Virus record (IMG/VR): IMGVR_UViG_3300032093_000664
Location: 1-27,988 of that record
Direction: 5' to 3' (one strand)
Length of the DNA stretch: 27,988 nt
Source: a virus
This document shows positions 3,208-19,532 of this stretch, piece after piece (positions within the stretch are counted from its first letter, which is position 1; the number at the start of each line of letters is the position of its first letter). The notes beneath the pieces are model-generated. The model ran no database searches. It worked only from the letters and a program-made list of their open reading frames with translations, and was not told the DNA's origin. A program made the position numbers and the translations under genes.

Positions 3208-6036
3208 ATGGCTAAAAGAATTTTAATTGAGTATGATGTAGACAGTAAAGACCTGAAAATAGCTGGTCAGGAAACCCTATCATTAACTCAACAACTTCGT
3301 ATCTTAAAGAAAGAACTTCAAAGAGGTGATCTTAAACCAGAACAATTTGATATTCTTCGTAAAAAAATTGGTGATACTGAAGATCAAATAGCTAGAACTA
3401 CCACAAGATCAAAAGACTTTTTGGGAGTATTGGCTACATTGCCAGGTCCTGTTGGTACGTTTGGTGCATCTATATTAGGTGTTGTTGATACCTTAAAAGT
3501 GTTCTCCGGTTTTTCATTCAAAGATATTAAAAACTCTTTGGGTGATTTAGGTGATGATGTTGTTGAAATTACCAATGGATTTTTAGGTCTTGGTGATGCA
3601 AAAAAGAAAACAGAAGAGTCCACAAAATCTTTAACAACCGCTACTCAAGAAAGTGTTGCTGTTACAGAAAACAATTCTTCAGCATTAGCGGCAAATGCTG
3701 CACAAGGCGCTGTTGTTACCAATGCTATTTCTAAACAACAAGAAGCATTAAAAGCATTAGCCAAAGAACAACAATTTGCTACGGTATTATATGATAGTAA
3801 GGGAAATGCTATGATTAAGGCTACCAAGCCTATCAAAGATATGACCCAAGCAGAAGCTGCATTATTTGCACAACAAAGAGCAGCTTTAGTACAAAGTGGT
3901 GTACTAAAAACAAAAAATATGGAACTAGCTGGTAGCTATGAAACAGCAACAGCTGGTATAGTTACAACCACGGTAGCAACAAATACATTAACGGTAGCAC
4001 AAAGAGCAGCAGCATTTGCTGGTCAAGCGTTAAAGGTTGTATTAGCATCATTAGGTATTGGTCTTGTTATCATCGCTATAACAGAATTAATTAGCTTACT
4101 TACAGAATGGGCTAGTGGTACAAAAGAAGCTGAAAGAGCACAAAAAGAATTTAATGATGAATTAGAAAGAACTACTACATTATTAGAACTTGATCTAAAT
4201 GATACCAGAAGACGTAATGCAATTAGAATAGCAGAATTAAAAGCTGCTGGTGCATCTGAAAAAGAAATAAGAAACCAACAGCTAAAAGAGTTAAAAGAAA
4301 ATTTAGATCTTGTTAATCAAGCTGTTATAGATGCAGCTAAACTTGAAAATGCTACATTAAAAAGAACAGATGAAAAAGCTGTTGAAGATTACACTACAAT
4401 CAGTAAAAAAAGAACAGAACTTGAACAAAAAGCTAAAGATATAAGGACTCAAATTCGTGTAGCTGAGTTAACTGGTATTGCTGATGACAACAAAAAGAGA
4501 TTAGAACTAAATAAAAAATCTGCTGACGATGAATACAACAGAAAGTTAAAAGAACTTGATGCATTAATTCAATTAGAGGTAGATAAAGATAATACAGATG
4601 AAAAGAGATTAGCTGATTTTCTTGATAGAAAAATGAAGCTAATAATGACCAAAGAAAAGTTGAGTGCTGCTGAACAACAATTAATGAGACAGCAAAACTC
4701 ACAAAAGGTCAAACAAGCTTTGGACGAAGACTCACAAAGATTACAAGATTACTTCAAGAAAGTAGAAGATATTAGAATTGATGCAATAGCAGATGAGGAA
4801 CAAGCTAGAGTTGAGGCTAGAGAAAATAAGGTATATTTTGATAAGATAGCACTTAGCAGAGACAAAGAGTTTATCAAGAAAAGCAAACAAGAACAAGATA
4901 AATTATTCAAAGACCTTGAAATTGCTGCTCAACAAGATATTCTTAAGATACGTGAAGAGTTTTTCTTAAAGAGATTGCAAATAGCACAAGATCAAGCAAT
5001 CGCTGAAGTTGATGCTTTAACAAGATTAAAAGACCAAGAGAATAATATAAACAATGTTCGTTTACAACAATTAGGTGATTTTACTGCTGTATATGGTGAT
5101 TACTTCTTTGGTAACAAAGGTTTAAAAGCATTATATGCAAAATATTTTGTTGATCTTAGACAAGTATATACAGATGAATTTAATGCAAATACAGCGATAT
5201 TTGACGCTGAACAAATTCAACTTGATCAAGCATTAGCAAACAAAACTTTGTCTCAAGAAAAGTATGATGAGAGAATAAGAGAACTAAACGAAAAGAGATT
5301 ACAAAATAACGAAGAGTTTACTCAACGTCAAATCCAATTAGATCAATTAGAGGTAGATTCTAAGAGAGCTAGTGCGGATAAGACCGTAGAGATTGGTGCA
5401 CAGTTGGTTAACTTATTAAGTGCTGTAGCCGGTAAGAGTAAAGGTATTCAAATAGCTGCAGCTATTACAGAAGCTGGTGTGGCTATCGCTAGAATCATTA
5501 TAGATACCCAAAGAGCGATCATCGCGTTTAGTGCGTCAGTTGCACCATTAGGCCCGGCTGGTGTTCCTATTGCGGCTGGATACGCTGTTAAAGCTAAGAT
5601 TGCTGCAGCATTAAGTATTGCTACAATTGTTGCACAGGGTATCAACAAATTAAAAGAAATTAAATCTGCTGGATCTGGAGAAGGTGAAGGTGGACAACAA
5701 TCAAATAGATTGGGTAGAGGATATGCTGATGGTGGTATTGTAAGAGGTCCAGGTGGTCCTAAATCAGATAGTATTAATGCTAGACTATCCAATGGCGAAG
5801 CTGTAATGACAGCTGGTGCAGTAACTATGTTTGCTCCATTATTGTCAATGATGAACCAAATGGGTGGAGGTGCTGCGTTTACATCTAGTTTAAATACAGC
5901 ATTACCTGATAGACCAGCAGTAGCACAACCATCATTAGAACAATCAGAAATGATCGTTAAAACATATGTGGTTGAGAAAGAATTAACAGATGCTCAACAC
6001 AGACAAGCTAGATTAAAGAACCTATCCACATTATAA
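3208..6036 (+). CDS. Tape measure protein
   Basis: The tape measure protein sets tail length and is expelled during DNA delivery. At 942 residues it has the expected build. Long Lys/Glu/Gln-rich helical, coiled-coil stretches occupy about 300-720. Hydrophobic segments lie near 277-300 and in a long Ala/Ile-rich stretch at about 743-820. Near the C-terminus, from about residue 839, is the motif YADGGIV-x-GPGG followed by SDSI-x-A-x-LSNGEAV, which is very typical of siphophage tape measure proteins. At the usual scale of about 0.15 nm per residue, this length would predict a tail of roughly 140 nm. That figure is a general rule applied here, not a measurement. The gene lies between the appendage genes and the capsid-assembly genes, and a promoter-like box follows its stop. 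Confidence 0.93.
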   Translation: MAKRILIEYDVDSKDLKIAGQETLSLTQQLRILKKELQRGDLKPEQFDILRKKIGDTEDQIARTTTRSKDFLGVLATLPGPVGTFGASILGVVDTLKVFSGFSFKDIKNSLGDLGDDVVEITNGFLGLGDAKKKTEESTKSLTTATQESVAVTENNSSALAANAAQGAVVTNAISKQQEALKALAKEQQFATVLYDSKGNAMIKATKPIKDMTQAEAALFAQQRAALVQSGVLKTKNMELAGSYETATAGIVTTTVATNTLTVAQRAAAFAGQALKVVLASLGIGLVIIAITELISLLTEWASGTKEAERAQKEFNDELERTTTLLELDLNDTRRRNAIRIAELKAAGASEKEIRNQQLKELKENLDLVNQAVIDAAKLENATLKRTDEKAVEDYTTISKKRTELEQKAKDIRTQIRVAELTGIADDNKKRLELNKKSADDEYNRKLKELDALIQLEVDKDNTDEKRLADFLDRKMKLIMTKEKLSAAEQQLMRQQNSQKVKQALDEDSQRLQDYFKKVEDIRIDAIADEEQARVEARENKVYFDKIALSRDKEFIKKSKQEQDKLFKDLEIAAQQDILKIREEFFLKRLQIAQDQAIAEVDALTRLKDQENNINNVRLQQLGDFTAVYGDYFFGNKGLKALYAKYFVDLRQVYTDEFNANTAIFDAEQIQLDQALANKTLSQEKYDERIRELNEKRLQNNEEFTQRQIQLDQLEVDSKRASADKTVEIGAQLVNLLSAVAGKSKGIQIAAAITEAGVAIARIIIDTQRAIIAFSASVAPLGPAGVPIAAGYAVKAKIAAALSIATIVAQGINKLKEIKSAGSGEGEGGQQSNRLGRGYADGGIVRGPGGPKSDSINARLSNGEAVMTAGAVTMFAPLLSMMNQMGGGAAFTSSLNTALPDRPAVAQPSLEQSEMIVKTYVVEKELTDAQHRQARLKNLSTL

Positions 6037-12930: not shown

Positions 12931-13142
12931 AAATAGACAACGAGAGATTACCAGAACCTAAACCAGAAGAATTACATTATACAAAAAAAGGTGATTACCA
13001 TAATAGAATGTTTAAAGAAACAGCTTCTGAAAAATACGGTATTACAAATATTGATTTTGCCAATTGGATAAATAAAACATTTGATGAGTACTACTTACAT
13101 AACAAACATATAACATATCGCGAATATAAAAAATTAATATAA
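12927..13142 (+). CDS. Small hypothetical protein (71 aa)
   Basis: The start overlaps the preceding stop by four bases (ATGA), which suggests translational coupling. The product is hydrophilic, rich in Lys, Glu, Tyr and His, with no domain I recognise. A helical C-terminal half (FANWINKTFDEYYLHNKHI) is likely. Function unknown; its place in the operon suggests expression with the portal and connector genes. Confidence 0.65.
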   Translation: MKIDNERLPEPKPEELHYTKKGDYHNRMFKETASEKYGITNIDFANWINKTFDEYYLHNKHITYREYKKLI

Positions 13143-13143
13143 T

Positions 13144-13479
13144 ATGGAAAAGCATCAAATAATCCACAAGTTTAGAGTTGAAAACCTATCTCAGAAAAAA
13201 GGTTGTGGCTGCAAAAAGAAAAACTTTGAAGAAGGTGAAATGGATAATCCGTGTTGGGAAGGTTACGAACCAATAGGAACAAAAATACTAGATGGTAAGG
13301 AAGTTCCCAATTGTGTGCCTATGGAAGCTAAGAAAGTCAAACAAGGTTTTCCTGTACCATCACCAGAAGGATCAGAAGATGAACAAGGTTTCATTAGTAG
13401 ATGTATGAGAGACATTGGTGGTGAATATGATCAAGATCAAGCACTAGCTATTTGCTATTCTAAGTGGAGAGGTGAATAA
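13144..13479 (+). CDS. Small Cys-containing protein resembling protease-associated modules
   Basis: The 111-residue protein contains KKGCGCKKKN near the N-terminus, then NPCWEGYEPIGTKILDGKEVPNCVP, and a C-terminal stretch FISRCMRDIGGEYDQDQALAICYSKW. Both later motifs occur, in my memory of the families, as short accessory modules in head-maturation proteases and structural proteins of Bacteroidota phages, often fused to the protease. Here they form a free-standing protein. Four of the cysteines lie in the two conserved motifs. It ends the plus-strand operon, and a two-way terminator follows. Function is not known; an interaction with the head is a guess. Confidence 0.7.
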   Translation: MEKHQIIHKFRVENLSQKKGCGCKKKNFEEGEMDNPCWEGYEPIGTKILDGKEVPNCVPMEAKKVKQGFPVPSPEGSEDEQGFISRCMRDIGGEYDQDQALAICYSKWRGE

Positions 13480-13500
13480 GTTCTTTTATTGTTTATAAAA

Positions 13501-13528
13501 AACCCCTTCCAAATTAATGGTTGGGGTT
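13501..13528. terminator. Bidirectional terminator between convergent operons
   Basis: AACCCC (13501-13506) pairs with GGGGTT (13523-13528), extended inward after two T-T mismatches by CCA/TGG. A T-rich tract follows on the plus strand (TTCTTTTTT) and an A-run precedes it, which is a T-run on the minus strand. The stop codon of the minus-strand gene (13514-13516) lies inside the loop. Confidence 0.8.
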
Positions 13529-14131
13529 TTCTTTTTTATGCTTCCAAATATATCCTCCAGCGGTCGGTGTTTTCTTTTGTCCTCTAGCACAGTTTGAAAT
13601 TGCTGTTGGAGATATATTTAAACTATTTGCCGCTTCTTTTAATGAATTAAATGTTTTTATAAATTTACCATCTTTTGTATATTGATCAATTTTTTTATAT
13701 TTTTTAATTTTTTCAAATTTAGGTATAGTTTTCTTTTTTTCATATGACCATAAAAATCCGCGGTAAGTTTTAGTTTTTAAATTACCAGCGGCACAATCTC
13801 GTATATATCTAGCTTTTAATCCGGTTGCATTGGCTGCTTCGTCTTTATCTTTATAAGATGCAATATGATTACCATTCAAATCATATTGATGTATTTCGTA
13901 TCTTTTGTATATTCTCTTAGTCTTATGCTCTAATAATTCTGCTGGTAACTTAATATAATACTTGTAAGTATAAATATAATTATGACAATAAGACCACCTA
14001 CCTTTTAAATGTTCAAGTAAAAACGATGATGCTATTTTATCAATATAAGCAGCAGCCTCTGCACTTTCATACTCAGTAATAAAATTACCAGTTAAATCGT
14101 ATTTATATATTTTGCCTTTTGAATATGCCAT
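13514..14131 (-). CDS. NUMOD1-repeat DNA-binding-type protein, no nuclease domain
   Basis: The 205-residue protein consists of three repeats, at about 7-60, 78-130 and 147-198. Each has the NUMOD1-like pattern: Y-D-x-x-G-N/K-hydrophobic, then a Ser/Glu-Ala-Ala helix, then C-x-x-G with Lys/Thr, ending G-Y/F-x-W. Repeat 3 (IDQYTKDGKFIKTF and GGYIWKH) is closest to the consensus. NUMOD1 modules are normally DNA-binding segments of homing endonucleases, but no HNH or GIY-YIG catalytic motif is present. The first repeat is clearly related to that of the neighbour 3 bases upstream, including a shared YIKLP segment, so the two are paralogues. DNA binding is inferred; the target is unknown. Confidence 0.75.
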   Translation of the reverse strand: MAYSKGKIYKYDLTGNFITEYESAEAAAYIDKIASSFLLEHLKGRWSYCHNYIYTYKYYIKLPAELLEHKTKRIYKRYEIHQYDLNGNHIASYKDKDEAANATGLKARYIRDCAAGNLKTKTYRGFLWSYEKKKTIPKFEKIKKYKKIDQYTKDGKFIKTFNSLKEAANSLNISPTAISNCARGQKKTPTAGGYIWKHKKENPNH

Positions 14132-14134
14132 GAC

Positions 14135-14494
14135 TTAATCTTTTAATTTCCAAATATAACCTCTGTGTGTCTTTAGTTTACCTTTTAAACATTTGACAAC
14201 AGAAGATTCGTCAAAACCAAACCTTGAGGTATGTTCTACTCTATCAAAGATATTAATCAAATTCATTTGATCATCATACTGATAGATCTTAGAATATCTA
14301 AGCATTAGAGTTTTTGGTAACTTAATATACATTTTATGTGACCAATAAGAATCACAATGTGTTTTTGTTTTACCTTTTAAACAAGCACACAAGGTAGACT
14401 TATCTGTTTTTATTATATGTGCTGCAGAGGCTGCATTAGCATACTCTTTAACAAAGTTACCATCTAAATCGTACTGATAAACTTTACCGTTCAT
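14135..14494 (-). CDS. Two-repeat NUMOD1 DNA-binding-type protein, no nuclease domain
   Basis: The product has 119 residues and two NUMOD1-like repeats, about 4-55 and 69-116. The first begins VYQYDLDGNFVKEY and the second ends RGYIWKLKD. Between them is the linker MYIKLPKTLM, nearly the same as YIKLPAELL in the three-repeat neighbour, so a tandem gene duplication is likely. It starts 6 bases after the AAA+ ATPase gene stops, and its own stop is 3 bases before the next start, so the three genes form one transcription unit. No catalytic residues of a nuclease are visible. It may be a solo DNA-binding protein or a decayed homing-endonuclease part. Confidence 0.72.
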   Translation of the reverse strand: MNGKVYQYDLDGNFVKEYANAASAAHIIKTDKSTLCACLKGKTKTHCDSYWSHKMYIKLPKTLMLRYSKIYQYDDQMNLINIFDRVEHTSRFGFDESSVVKCLKGKLKTHRGYIWKLKD

Positions 14495-14499
14495 AAGAA

Positions 14500-15339
14500 T
14501 TATTTTTTAAATTCTTGTTCCCACTTAGTTTTATAGTTCTTTGGGTTTTTAACATATGTCTCAAGCATCTGTTCTACTTGTCTAATTGTTCTGCGTTTCA
14601 AATCAGACCAGTTATCATAAAAGAATTGACAAGCCTCAACTCTAATTGACATAGGAACACCTTTAGGAATATATGGTGAATTTAAAATCATTGTTGTGAT
14701 ATAACCCCATTGTGTTGTTGGTGGCATTGTAAAATCTCTTACATTAAATCTATCTGCTATTGCTGACAAGTGACTATCTCTAGACGTTCTAACTTCATCA
14801 GAAGAAGGTAGCTTAATGTTTGAAGCCATAACAAATACTATATTATCTGTAGGTACTTTAAAACCACCACCCTTTTGTGTAAAGTGTTCAATGGCTCTTC
14901 TACCGGCATCATCGGTATTGTTAAGAAGATTATTCATATTCTTCATATATGAATAGCATCTTTCATCTCTCAATAAGTTTTTAAACATATTAAGATCGTC
15001 CGGCTTATAAAGCAAACTTTCGCAGTCGTCAAAATAAATGTAATGAGTGTCCTTTGGTTTTAGGTCTTTAACTATTAAAGCTAACATAATACCAAACTGT
15101 GCCATTGTAACACCGGCACCAATAATGGTAACATTTTTATTATGTTTGTCAAACTTATTCTTTAAGGTATATGACTTAGCCATACCAGGACTTGACTGAA
15201 TATAGAAATGTGGGAAATTGTCTTTGGATGTATAACTGACAATCTCATCAGCAATTTCAAATAAACGTGTCTTTTGCTTTTCGCCTTCTTTGATGTAACC
15301 CATCAATTCGTCTGAGAATAACTGTGTTTTCTTTTTCAT
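14500..15339 (-). CDS. AAA+ family ATPase with altered Walker A
   Basis: I read a 279-residue AAA+ type protein starting at ATG 15339. A longer frame from TTG 15363 is unlikely because that codon overlaps the -7 promoter element. Visible motifs are Walker A-like SSPGMAKS (49-56, Lys55, Ser56; the usual Gly before Lys is Ala), Walker B YIYFDD (100-105), sensor 1 Asn174 in VMASN, and a likely arginine finger Arg197 in ADRF. The C-terminal 70 residues are helical. Such proteins use ATP to remodel DNA-protein complexes, for example helicase loaders. It heads an operon with two NUMOD1-repeat proteins, which may supply DNA targeting. The substrate is unknown. The Ala in the P-loop may weaken but need not abolish ATP binding. 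Confidence 0.8.
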   Translation of the reverse strand: MKKKTQLFSDELMGYIKEGEKQKTRLFEIADEIVSYTSKDNFPHFYIQSSPGMAKSYTLKNKFDKHNKNVTIIGAGVTMAQFGIMLALIVKDLKPKDTHYIYFDDCESLLYKPDDLNMFKNLLRDERCYSYMKNMNNLLNNTDDAGRRAIEHFTQKGGGFKVPTDNIVFVMASNIKLPSSDEVRTSRDSHLSAIADRFNVRDFTMPPTTQWGYITTMILNSPYIPKGVPMSIRVEACQFFYDNWSDLKRRTIRQVEQMLETYVKNPKNYKTKWEQEFKK

Positions 15340-15360
15340 ATTGTTTTTAAATTTGTCCCA

Positions 15361-15393
15361 CAAAGTTAAGAAAACTTTTGTGATATCACCAAA
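15361..15393 (-). promoter_or_regulatory. Bacteroidota-type promoter with palindromic operator for the AAA+/NUMOD1 operon
   Basis: Read on the minus strand, TTTG (plus 15390-15393) is followed after 21 bases by TAACTTTG (plus 15361-15368), an exact match to the -33/-7 pattern TTTG and TAnnTTTG. Directly beside the -33 box, inside the spacer, is a perfect 10-base palindrome GTGATATCAC (15380-15389). A second inverted repeat, AAAGTT/AACTTT (15362-15367 and 15373-15378), overlaps the -7 box. The layout suggests repression by a dimeric DNA-binding protein. Confidence 0.7.
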
Positions 15394-15431
15394 TTTTTTT
15401 TTATAAAAAACGTAACTAATTGATTATCAAT

Positions 15432-17995: not shown

Positions 17996-18066
17996 CATAT
18001 TAACTATAAATACAACTTAAGTCCAGCCAAGGTTTTTGCTCCATCACCTAGCTGGACTTTTGCTTT
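17996..18066 (+). ncRNA. Putative 70-base RNA or attenuator leader ending in a terminator
   Basis: From the estimated start at about 17996 to the terminator at 18066 there are only about 70 bases. AAGTCCAGC (18019-18027) pairs perfectly with GCTGGACTT (18051-18059), extended by AGG/CCT inside, and is followed by TTGCTTTT. Either it makes a free small RNA, or it attenuates transcription into the zinc-finger/HTH gene at 18087. A box at 18075 just after the hairpin may restart transcription. Confidence 0.5.
18019..18066 (+). terminator. Terminator or attenuator hairpin before the zinc-finger gene
   Basis: A perfect 9-bp stem (18019-18027 with 18051-18059), loop of 23 bases, then TTGCTTTT. It sits 21 bases before the next gene's start at 18087. 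Confidence 0.65.
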
Positions 18067-18074
18067 TAAACCAG

Positions 18075-18081
18075 ATATTTA
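18075..18081 (+). promoter_or_regulatory. ATATTTA box 5 bases before ATG
   Basis: ATATTTA lies exactly 5 bases before ATG 18087, the same distance as before the protease gene (6061) and the 46-residue gene (15829). It may be a promoter giving a leaderless mRNA, or an A/T-rich translation signal. Confidence 0.35.
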
Positions 18082-18086
18082 TTATT

Positions 18087-18794
18087 ATGCGTCGTTGCAA
18101 TAAATGTGATTTAGAAAAAGACGATAAGCAGTTTTATACTTACTACCATTCAACACAGAAGAAGTATAGGACCAGAAAGATCTGTAACGAATGTATAGCT
18201 AAACAAAAAGCTGAATATAAACAAAGGCTTAAACCACAAATATCTCAACCTGTGATAGAAGAACCAATTGAATTTATACCACCAGATGATTATCAGTATT
18301 GTCAGGACTGTGAACAATGGTTACCAAATACAGAATTTTATAAACGCTTAAAGATTAGATGTAAGGCTTGTGAACTTGAAATGGATCGCAGAGAAAGACA
18401 GAAATACTTAAGCGAAAATGGTGGTAGTGCTAAGGTATGGAACAATCCAAACACATATGTGGATATTTATCAGAAAGAACAAACATTTGAAATTATGAAA
18501 GTAATGGGTTATACTTTCAACGAAGAGAATGGTGTTTGGTATAAATTACCTTGGAAAGACAAAGACGGTAACTTCCCATTATTAGATAGTTATGGTAGAC
18601 CAAGTAGAAAATTTACGAAGCGTAAACCACATACCAAAAGAAAAAGATCTGAGATAACCCAAGAAGAAAAGGATGAAGTTGTAAATTTGCATTTAGAAGG
18701 TTATTCTAATAAGCAAATAGCAAAACTAACAGGTCAAGCAAACGGAACAGTATGGCGATGGGTAGAAAAGCACAAGTCAAAATTGATGAAATAG
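18087..18794 (+). CDS. Zinc-finger and HTH DNA-binding protein
   Basis: I start this 235-residue protein at ATG 18087; an upstream in-frame ATG at 18036 lies inside the terminator hairpin and is rejected. There are two C4 zinc-binding pairs: Cys4/Cys7 with Cys33/Cys36, and Cys72/Cys75 with Cys92/Cys95. A basic linker (KRKPHTKRKRSEI) leads to a C-terminal helix-turn-helix at about 190-230 (EEKDEVVNLHLEGYSNKQI, then TGQANGTVWRWVEKHK), of the type found in resolvases and terminase small subunits. It lies at the head of the regulatory run before the sigma-like factor, so transcription control is likely. A packaging role is an alternative because the terminase is close by. Confidence 0.72.
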   Translation: MRRCNKCDLEKDDKQFYTYYHSTQKKYRTRKICNECIAKQKAEYKQRLKPQISQPVIEEPIEFIPPDDYQYCQDCEQWLPNTEFYKRLKIRCKACELEMDRRERQKYLSENGGSAKVWNNPNTYVDIYQKEQTFEIMKVMGYTFNEENGVWYKLPWKDKDGNFPLLDSYGRPSRKFTKRKPHTKRKRSEITQEEKDEVVNLHLEGYSNKQIAKLTGQANGTVWRWVEKHKSKLMK

Positions 18795-19030
18795 ATATTC
18801 CGAAAGACTATTTTGACCTTAAGAGAGAGGATAAGGAAGAGCTATGTGAATACATAGCGAACAAAATATATTTGATGGTAGATAGATCAACACACGTTGG
18901 GATGAATAGAGATGCGGTTGTGGATTTAATTATTCAATCATCATTAATAACAAACGAGGAAGAAGAAAATTATGAGATGTGCCAAGTGCTCGTGGATATT
19001 AGAAAACTAATAAATGAAAAAAAAGATTGA
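18752..19030 (+). CDS. Conserved-looking small acidic protein (92 aa)
   Basis: The start lies 43 bases inside the preceding gene, in another frame; a second ATG at 18758 is equally possible. The product has a basic start (MGRKAQVKID), then IDIPKDYFDLKREDKEELCEYIANKIY and a helical, acidic rest. This is the style of conserved small proteins of Bacteroidota phages, but I know of no function. It overlaps the sigma-like factor gene by 17 bases, so the run of genes is very compact and probably translationally coupled. Confidence 0.68.
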   Translation: MAMGRKAQVKIDEIDIPKDYFDLKREDKEELCEYIANKIYLMVDRSTHVGMNRDAVVDLIIQSSLITNEEEENYEMCQVLVDIRKLINEKKD

Positions 19031-19532
19031 GAGCTATATAACCAGAAACTATTACCAACTGCTTAAAATAGCTAAGAAATTAACAAACAACCACGATCTA
19101 CACCAGGACTTATTACACGAGGTTATCTTACAGATATTAGAAAAAGACGATGTGGTTCTAAAGACATATGATGATGATTCAATTAGATATTATATTGTAG
19201 CCATCATCCGCATCAATTGGAACAGCAAAACCTCACCATTCTACTACAAGATCCGCAGAGAAATATCTAAATATACGGATCTAACACCCATACTAGAAAT
19301 AGAAGAAGACCAACAACAATTTGAAAAAGAATTAATTTTTTCTATATTAGAGGTAAGCTACACAGAGTTAAACTTTTTCCATAAGGCGTTAATGGATGCC
19401 TATTTGATATTAGGTTCAATGAATAAAGTATCAAGAGAAATGGAGATACCTTTAACATCTGTGCAGACTTATATAAGACAAGCTAAAAGCAAAATAAAGG
19501 AAGACGTAAATAAAAGATTAAAAGATTTATGA
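19014..19532 (+). CDS. Sigma-70-like (ECF-type) transcription factor
   Basis: The 172-residue protein has the two-domain layout of a small sigma factor. Residues 13-45 (LLKIAKKLTNNHDLHQDLLHEVILQIL) resemble sigma region 2.1-2.2, with the core-binding acidic/hydrophobic helix. Residues 57-85 (IRYYIVAIIRINWNSKTSPFYYKIRRE) fit regions 2.3-2.4. An acidic linker leads to a region 4-like HTH at about 132-160 (LGSMNKVSREMEIPLTSVQT, then YIRQAKSKIK). Such factors recruit host RNA polymerase to phage promoters. It overlaps both neighbours. The window carries a recurrent TATATTTA promoter-like box that it could recognise; this link is inference. Confidence 0.72.
   Translation: MKKKIESYITRNYYQLLKIAKKLTNNHDLHQDLLHEVILQILEKDDVVLKTYDDDSIRYYIVAIIRINWNSKTSPFYYKIRREISKYTDLTPILEIEEDQQQFEKELIFSILEVSYTELNFFHKALMDAYLILGSMNKVSREMEIPLTSVQTYIRQAKSKIKEDVNKRLKDL

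Follow-up and report, generated by a model that had tools for sequence, protein, structure and literature searches.

The stretch of viral DNA analyzed here (27,988 nt, hereafter the window) carries a compact unit of three minus-strand genes separated by intergenic gaps of 5 nt and 3 nt. An AAA+ ATPase gene is followed by two partner genes, and the ORF coordinates agree with the layout and the 13514-15393 span proposed in an initial annotation. The promoter and terminator predicted there for the unit were also found. The features are as follows:

15361..15393, minus strand: promoter of Bacteroidota type, TTTG-N21-TAACTTTG, the only match in the window
14500..15339, minus strand: AAA+ ATPase, 279 aa, T4 NrdC.10 / phrog_1250 superfamily, NUMOD-partnered branch
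15172..15195, minus strand: Walker A, SSPGMAKS, aa 49-56, from alignment columns
15025..15042, minus strand: Walker B, YIYFDD, aa 100-105, from alignment columns
14135..14494, minus strand: partner 1, nuclease-less NUMOD1 array of 2 units, 119 aa
14378..14485, minus strand: NUMOD1 unit 1 of partner 1; together with the [YF]-Y-x-K-x-P motif after it, this is the conserved N-terminal unit, a candidate docking element
13514..14131, minus strand: partner 2, nuclease-less NUMOD1 array of 3 units (the first partial), 205 aa
14048..14113, minus strand: NUMOD1 unit 1 of partner 2, partial, the same N-terminal unit as in partner 1
13790..13894, minus strand: NUMOD1 unit 2 of partner 2
13586..13696, minus strand: NUMOD1 unit 3 of partner 2
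13497..13532, minus strand: intrinsic terminator hairpin, likely bidirectional (-17.1 kcal/mol, z -4.9)
13503..15418, no strand: whole cassette, the stretch missing in the sister phage L027, from flank comparison

The ATPase start was taken as ATG 15339, the likely choice since TTG 15363 falls inside the -7 element of the promoter. As 1.76 chance promoter matches are expected over the whole window, the informative part of the promoter match is its position alone. An element resembling it precedes the AAA gene of the related phage L009; the idea that each AAA gene has a conserved Bacteroidota promoter was considered and rejected, as only the window and L009 genes have one. The earlier placement of the unit inside the virion gene cluster was roughly right: head-connector genes lie on one side and early/terminase genes on the other, and the site between them is a variable accessory region. 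Across the portal relatives, the region around the cassette is a hotspot of minus-strand accessory genes.

Three agreeing lines of evidence (motif columns, profile membership, and a structural model) establish that the ATPase belongs to the AAA+ proteins, as the initial annotation had stated. Pfam returned no AAA match. In PHROGs, the protein matched phrog_1250, the family of T4 NrdC.10, at 1.6e-8, and this was the best family for every AAA+ tested, with values from 1.8e-13 to 1.7e-5 for the others. The Walker A, Walker B, sensor-1, and Arg-finger columns are conserved between the window ATPase and its relatives, the Walker A motif being a GxAKS variant in the window copy versus GxGKT/S in the relatives. 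The same variant is found in MCM and RavA, which are active AAA+ proteins. AlphaFold2, supplied with an eight-row alignment (about 25-54% identity), produced a confident AAA+ fold (pLDDT 87, pTM 0.80); an earlier model built from just 4 sequences fell short (pLDDT 61), so the Foldseek matches obtained with it were discarded. The top viral structural match was A0A7R7EFP9 (283 aa, TM 0.90), which from its length and identity is probably a protein of the type found in the Burkholderia phages FLC6 and FLC8. Below it came AAA+ proteins, among them nrdC.10 of Aeromonas phage 25 (Foldseek TM 0.71/0.62, E 1.8e-9). Among solved structures, it is a generic AAA+ fold, NorQ (TM about 0.45-0.53), HslU, and RuvB (about 0.45-0.5) being nearest; many AAA+ folds score alike there, so the similarity to NorQ is no family assignment and no functional subfamily is given. 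A PDB sequence search gave no significant match. PADLOC models matched neither the window ATPase nor that of L096, and gave one 20-bit MADS match for the ATPase of L093.

The partners proved to be NUMOD1 proteins with two and three copies, as had been proposed, the first copy of the 205-aa protein being partial. Pfam NUMOD1 (PF07453, cut-off 22.8 bits) scored 38.8 bits over 2 stretches of partner 1 and 54.3 bits over 3 stretches of partner 2, and I-HmuI_NUMOD-like (PF22083) was also above its cut-off. NUMOD-type modules are established DNA-binding parts of homing endonucleases (PMC2988022, PMC1564403). The nuclease motif reported as missing is indeed missing: no nuclease model matched the window partners at E<=1, and no GIY-YIG, HNH, LAGLIDADG, or other nuclease domain was matched in any partner across the loci described below. 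The two window partners share an N-terminal DNA stretch (70% identity over 88 nt). Almost all NUMOD1-type partners (seven were compared) have an N-terminal unit with an aromatic-rich [YF]xK.P-like end, one variant being MTLP in L007.

The partners match homing-endonuclease profiles in the DNA-binding part only, and their PADLOC matches are likewise to homing-endonuclease models over the NUMOD parts, besides one 12-bit match at chance level. Moreover, residues 155-204 of partner 2 are 48-53% identical to the tails of endonucleases of crAss-like phages. These likenesses, together with the homing genes present in the same hotspot, would fit a shield against homing, in which the partner occupies the target sites of competing homing endonucleases and the AAA+ protein evicts or turns over the bound enzyme. 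We regard this as improbable, as the shared modules are widespread and no matching pair of endonuclease and partner target was identified.

Our analysis uncovered a conserved adjacency, with an AAA+ gene immediately followed by one or two genes for nuclease-less NUMOD/I-TevI-type arrays in 14 phage loci (the window, L007, L008, L009, L092, L093, L095, L096, FLC8, FLC6, and L113-L116). AAA+ identity across these loci goes down to ~23%, the distance between the AAA+ and partner genes is -11 to 73 nt, and the phages span sizes from 28 kb (a phage whose signals are of Bacteroidota type) to 225 kb (Burkholderia jumbo phages). The relatives are mostly metagenomic contigs, many of them fragmentary. 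A partner scored above the curated Pfam cut-off in 12 of the 14 loci; those of L096 and L115 had no significant Pfam NUMOD match and were counted by position and N-terminal similarity. The neighborhood sought from the start in other phages, AAA+ and then NUMOD genes, is present in L007, L008, and L009 (AAA 53-54% identical to that of the window, also beside head-connector genes) and beyond them. L092 combines a 29% identical AAA with a NUMOD1 partner. In FLC8, FLC6, and the jumbo contigs L093 and L095, the partners carry NUMOD3 and an I-TevI-type DNA-binding domain, and in the L096 group (AAA about 23%) I-TevI-type, NUMOD3-like, or zinc-finger-like modules follow a common N-terminal motif. The association is a single evolutionary one and not 14 independent ones; the argument for the pairing is that adjacency persists through great divergence and changing modules.

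The pairing bears directly on the view that the partners are decayed homing endonucleases that came to lie beside an ATPase gene by chance. Their modules are clearly of homing-endonuclease origin, but adjacency and gene order are conserved across very distant phages, and the ORFs are intact, with a partner-specific N-terminal unit and no nuclease remnant. The AAA+ core is under purifying selection (dN/dS 0.04-0.11). Decay is thus very improbable and was rejected on the conserved adjacency. Homologues scattered singly or decayed would have been expected if the genes did not belong together; they were found side by side in the 14 loci, which, with the dN/dS of the ATPase, strongly supports the initial proposal that ATPase and nuclease-less arrays form one unit.

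The cassette AAA+ proteins and the T4 NrdC.10 family have in common the phrog_1250 profile, the fold, and the Walker A/B, sensor, and R-finger columns. However, NrdC.10-type proteins are longer (~325-350 aa) and do not have the GxG/VPT insert seen before sensor 1 in the cassette AAA+. They also occur without a NUMOD partner (a NUMOD gene was immediately downstream of 0 of 12 NrdC.10-type homologues), while the cassette AAA+ is always partnered. A single branch with 99/98 support splits the tree into 13 partnered and 11 unpartnered AAA+ rows, leaving the cassette proteins outside the NrdC.10 clade. The AAA proteins of Gundel_1, Vibrio 1.207.B, and phiA41 belong to other AAA+ families and were retained as outgroups only. 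In the literature, NrdC.10 is listed only among conserved ORFs, its AAA match being marginal (PMC1524935), and nothing on its function, or on a combination of NUMOD with AAA+, was found in the open-licence literature. Two pattern scans of 84,980 bacterial and archaeal genomes returned no relatives of the AAA+, nor did plasmids yield any, so the unit seems confined to phages as far as pattern scans can tell, given that they miss distant relatives.

Comparison of related genomes showed that the cassette is accessory and portable, having been gained, lost, and transferred. The sister phage L027 is 99.9% identical to the window up to 13502 and its homology resumes at 15419 (83%), so that the whole unit from promoter to terminator is missing there. 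Most portal relatives are without the cassette, and searching 26 related virus records in full recovered the AAA+ from just five, all already known. SURPRISE13, which is about 82% identical to FLC8, has no unit between the flanks at FLC8 5956 and 7395 and holds an unrelated gene instead. In a similar manner, the partner gp128 and the AAA+ protein gp129 of FLC6 have no homologue in the close relatives RSL2/RSF1, which are the best match for 228 of the 241 FLC6 products (PMC8066314). Transfer is seen in L007 and L009, where the AAA+ proteins are 87% identical and the partners 39%; since this AAA+ similarity exceeds that of the portal (62%) and MCP (61%), the AAA+ has moved between the two phages. 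L115 and L116 share DNA homology from about 100 bp upstream of the AAA+ gene to about 65 bp inside the partner, and their flanks are non-homologous in the available stretches.

This behavior would also fit a selfish, homing-like cassette, a mobility element in which the ATPase replaces a nuclease of its own: the partner would mark the target in cassette-free genomes, and the AAA+ would help host or phage recombination to copy the unit in. The clean presence or absence at one site in L027, the L007/L009 transfer, and the non-homologous flanks of the L115/L116 unit all speak for it. So does L046, where a gene with GIY-YIG-like sequence and a weak NUMOD1 below the cut-off (3888-4370, minus strand) sits exactly at the cassette site of the window. 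The unit has, however, no recombinase or nuclease, and a search for target-site duplications and element-type end repeats gave nothing convincing. The only repeat noted is an AT-rich, imperfect (89%) direct repeat of 18 bp, one copy at each cassette edge (window 13486-13503 and 15394-15411), possibly a recombination seam, possibly chance. A swap of the partner at a fixed locus in FLC6/FLC8, described next, is also not whole-unit mobility. We consider the selfish cassette unlikely, although it is the strongest alternative.

In FLC6 and FLC8 the AAA+ proteins are identical (283/283) and the flanking DNA is 96-98% identical, but the partners are only about 36-37% identical. DNA homology ends 41 bp into the partner gene and returns 30 bp before its end. 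Among the 228 ORFs shared by the two phages (median identity 99.3%), the partner ranks fourth lowest; some other ORFs are as diverged, and some of the other low-ranked ones may not be genuine or may be read in a different frame. Two adjacent related genes at 184604-185815 of FLC8 (LC667450.1), 37-48% identical to their FLC6 counterparts, are among the most diverged and look like surface or decoration proteins. The same pattern holds for L115 and L116, with AAA+ proteins 92% and partners 35% identical. Within L116, the paralogous partners are 69% identical over the first 42 aa versus 21% over the rest. Conservation of the partner N-terminus differs between groups, being clear for the L096 group, only moderate for the NUMOD1 group, and weak for FLC8/L093. 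The partner body has therefore been replaced, whereas the AAA+ stays, as does the extreme N-terminus of the partner in some pairs. The initial annotation had been silent on this hypervariability and swapping, as well as on the occurrence in jumbo phages and the membership in the T4 NrdC.10 family (phrog_1250).

A constant ATPase, a conserved partner N-terminus, and a replaceable DNA-binding body fit a motor with exchangeable specificity subunits. We tentatively favor, at a strength approaching an even chance, a portable AAA+ motor whose interchangeable specificity subunit steers it to DNA, with phage conflict as the most likely use. The module would consist of a conserved AAA+ ATPase and one or two specificity subunits built of homing-endonuclease-type DNA-binding modules only (NUMOD1, NUMOD3, I-TevI-type HTH, and sometimes zinc-finger-like). 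The conserved N-terminus of the partner would dock onto the AAA+ oligomer, and its NUMOD array would recognize a specific DNA sequence, a role suggested by that of NUMOD modules in homing endonucleases. The ATPase might then remodel or strip nucleoprotein at the bound site, interfering with foreign DNA such as co-infecting phages, other mobile DNA, or host loci, and targeting would be altered by partner exchange, as for HsdS and the target-recognition domains of restriction systems. Against this reading, the unpartnered NrdC.10 branch shows that the AAA+ is able to function on its own. Specificity swapping and patchy presence favor a conflict role over housekeeping on the phage's own DNA; it is this evolutionary pattern that points to conflict as the most likely use. 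A precedent for phage-phage interference through homing-type DNA targeting is that by homing endonucleases between co-infecting jumbo phages, PhiPA3/PhiKZ (PMC12908238, review).

Housekeeping would take the form of a replication or transcription factor, likened to a pair of initiator and helicase loader, in which the partner reads an origin or operator of the phage itself and the AAA+ acts as a loader or remodeler of the replisome or RNA polymerase. Several neighbors agree with it, as NrdC.10-type relatives lie near clamp loader, regA, topoisomerase, or helicase genes and the FLC8 unit adjoins a DnaB-like helicase. Two AAA+ relatives also have weak matches to phrog_50, a DnaC-like loader (8e-4 and 9e-3), and the DNA-binding domain of I-TevI works as an autorepressor (PMC2988022). 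Nevertheless, the cassette is accessory, missing in most portal relatives, L027, and SURPRISE13, and its partner changes completely between otherwise near-identical genomes, so that any self site would need to change too. A role on the phage's own genome is rather unlikely for these reasons. Of the functions first suggested for the unit, replication loading has thus become less likely, because the cassette is missing in close relatives and the partner is replaced in near-identical genomes; the anti-competitor reading stands, as does the selfish cassette.

Returning to the motor with exchangeable targeting, each component comes from a known protein family, and the novelty is the two-component arrangement. 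Compared with GIY-YIG/HNH homing endonucleases with NUMOD tails (I-TevI, MobB, and I-HmuI types), the partners contain the same NUMOD1, NUMOD3, and I-TevI modules but differ in having no detectable nuclease domain, a fixed AAA+ neighbor, and a distinct N-terminal unit. MoxR-type AAA+ proteins with an adaptor (NorQ-NorD, CbbQO) likewise pair an AAA+ with a separate target-recognizing partner; that partner is a VWA protein, whereas the cassette partners are NUMOD DNA-binding arrays. TnsC, MuB, and IstB are AAA+ proteins whose DNA sites are chosen by a separate specificity protein (TniQ/TnsD). The cassette may work like these, but it is without element ends, and no transposase of the kind expected for Tn7, Mu, or IS21 was found among the neighboring proteins searched. 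Type I restriction systems keep a constant motor and replace the hypervariable DNA-recognition subunit HsdS by recombination. The swap in FLC6/FLC8 has the same pattern, although the cassette has no methylase or nuclease and its proteins are unrelated.

Going one step further, and held somewhat more loosely, these units may constitute an undescribed class of nuclease-free, DNA-sequence-programmed phage AAA+ systems, whose motor is re-aimed against rival genomes by exchanging arrays. If so, DNA-binding modules of homing endonucleases would have been put to use as the exchangeable targeting part of a motor ATPase, and DNA would be aimed at without being cut. The widespread NrdC.10 AAA+ family, to which no function is attached, gains a testable context, and the cultured FLC6/FLC8 pair offers a natural experiment, with the same motor and a different targeting subunit.

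Some further genes were observed in the same genomes. The hotspot of L077 holds an HNH_3 and NUMOD4 endonuclease gene (12963-13364, minus strand), and GIY-YIG and HNH homing endonuclease genes lie near the AAA+/partner units of L115 (1135-1728, minus strand) and L113 (6001-6579, minus strand). Hotspot proteins of L029 (11183-11974, minus strand) and L054 (2932-3819, minus strand) begin with a twin-arginine-like signal (RRDFLKNS...LASVVETLTP). In the L054 protein, NUMOD3 (57.5 bits) comes after this signal, perhaps together with a degenerate GIY-YIG-like stretch; it is odd for a phage NUMOD protein to bear a leader. Elsewhere in the window, the gene at 18036-18794 encodes an endonuclease VII-like N-terminus fused to a sigma/HTH-like C-terminus, and it adjoins a sigma-factor-like gene at 19014-19532.
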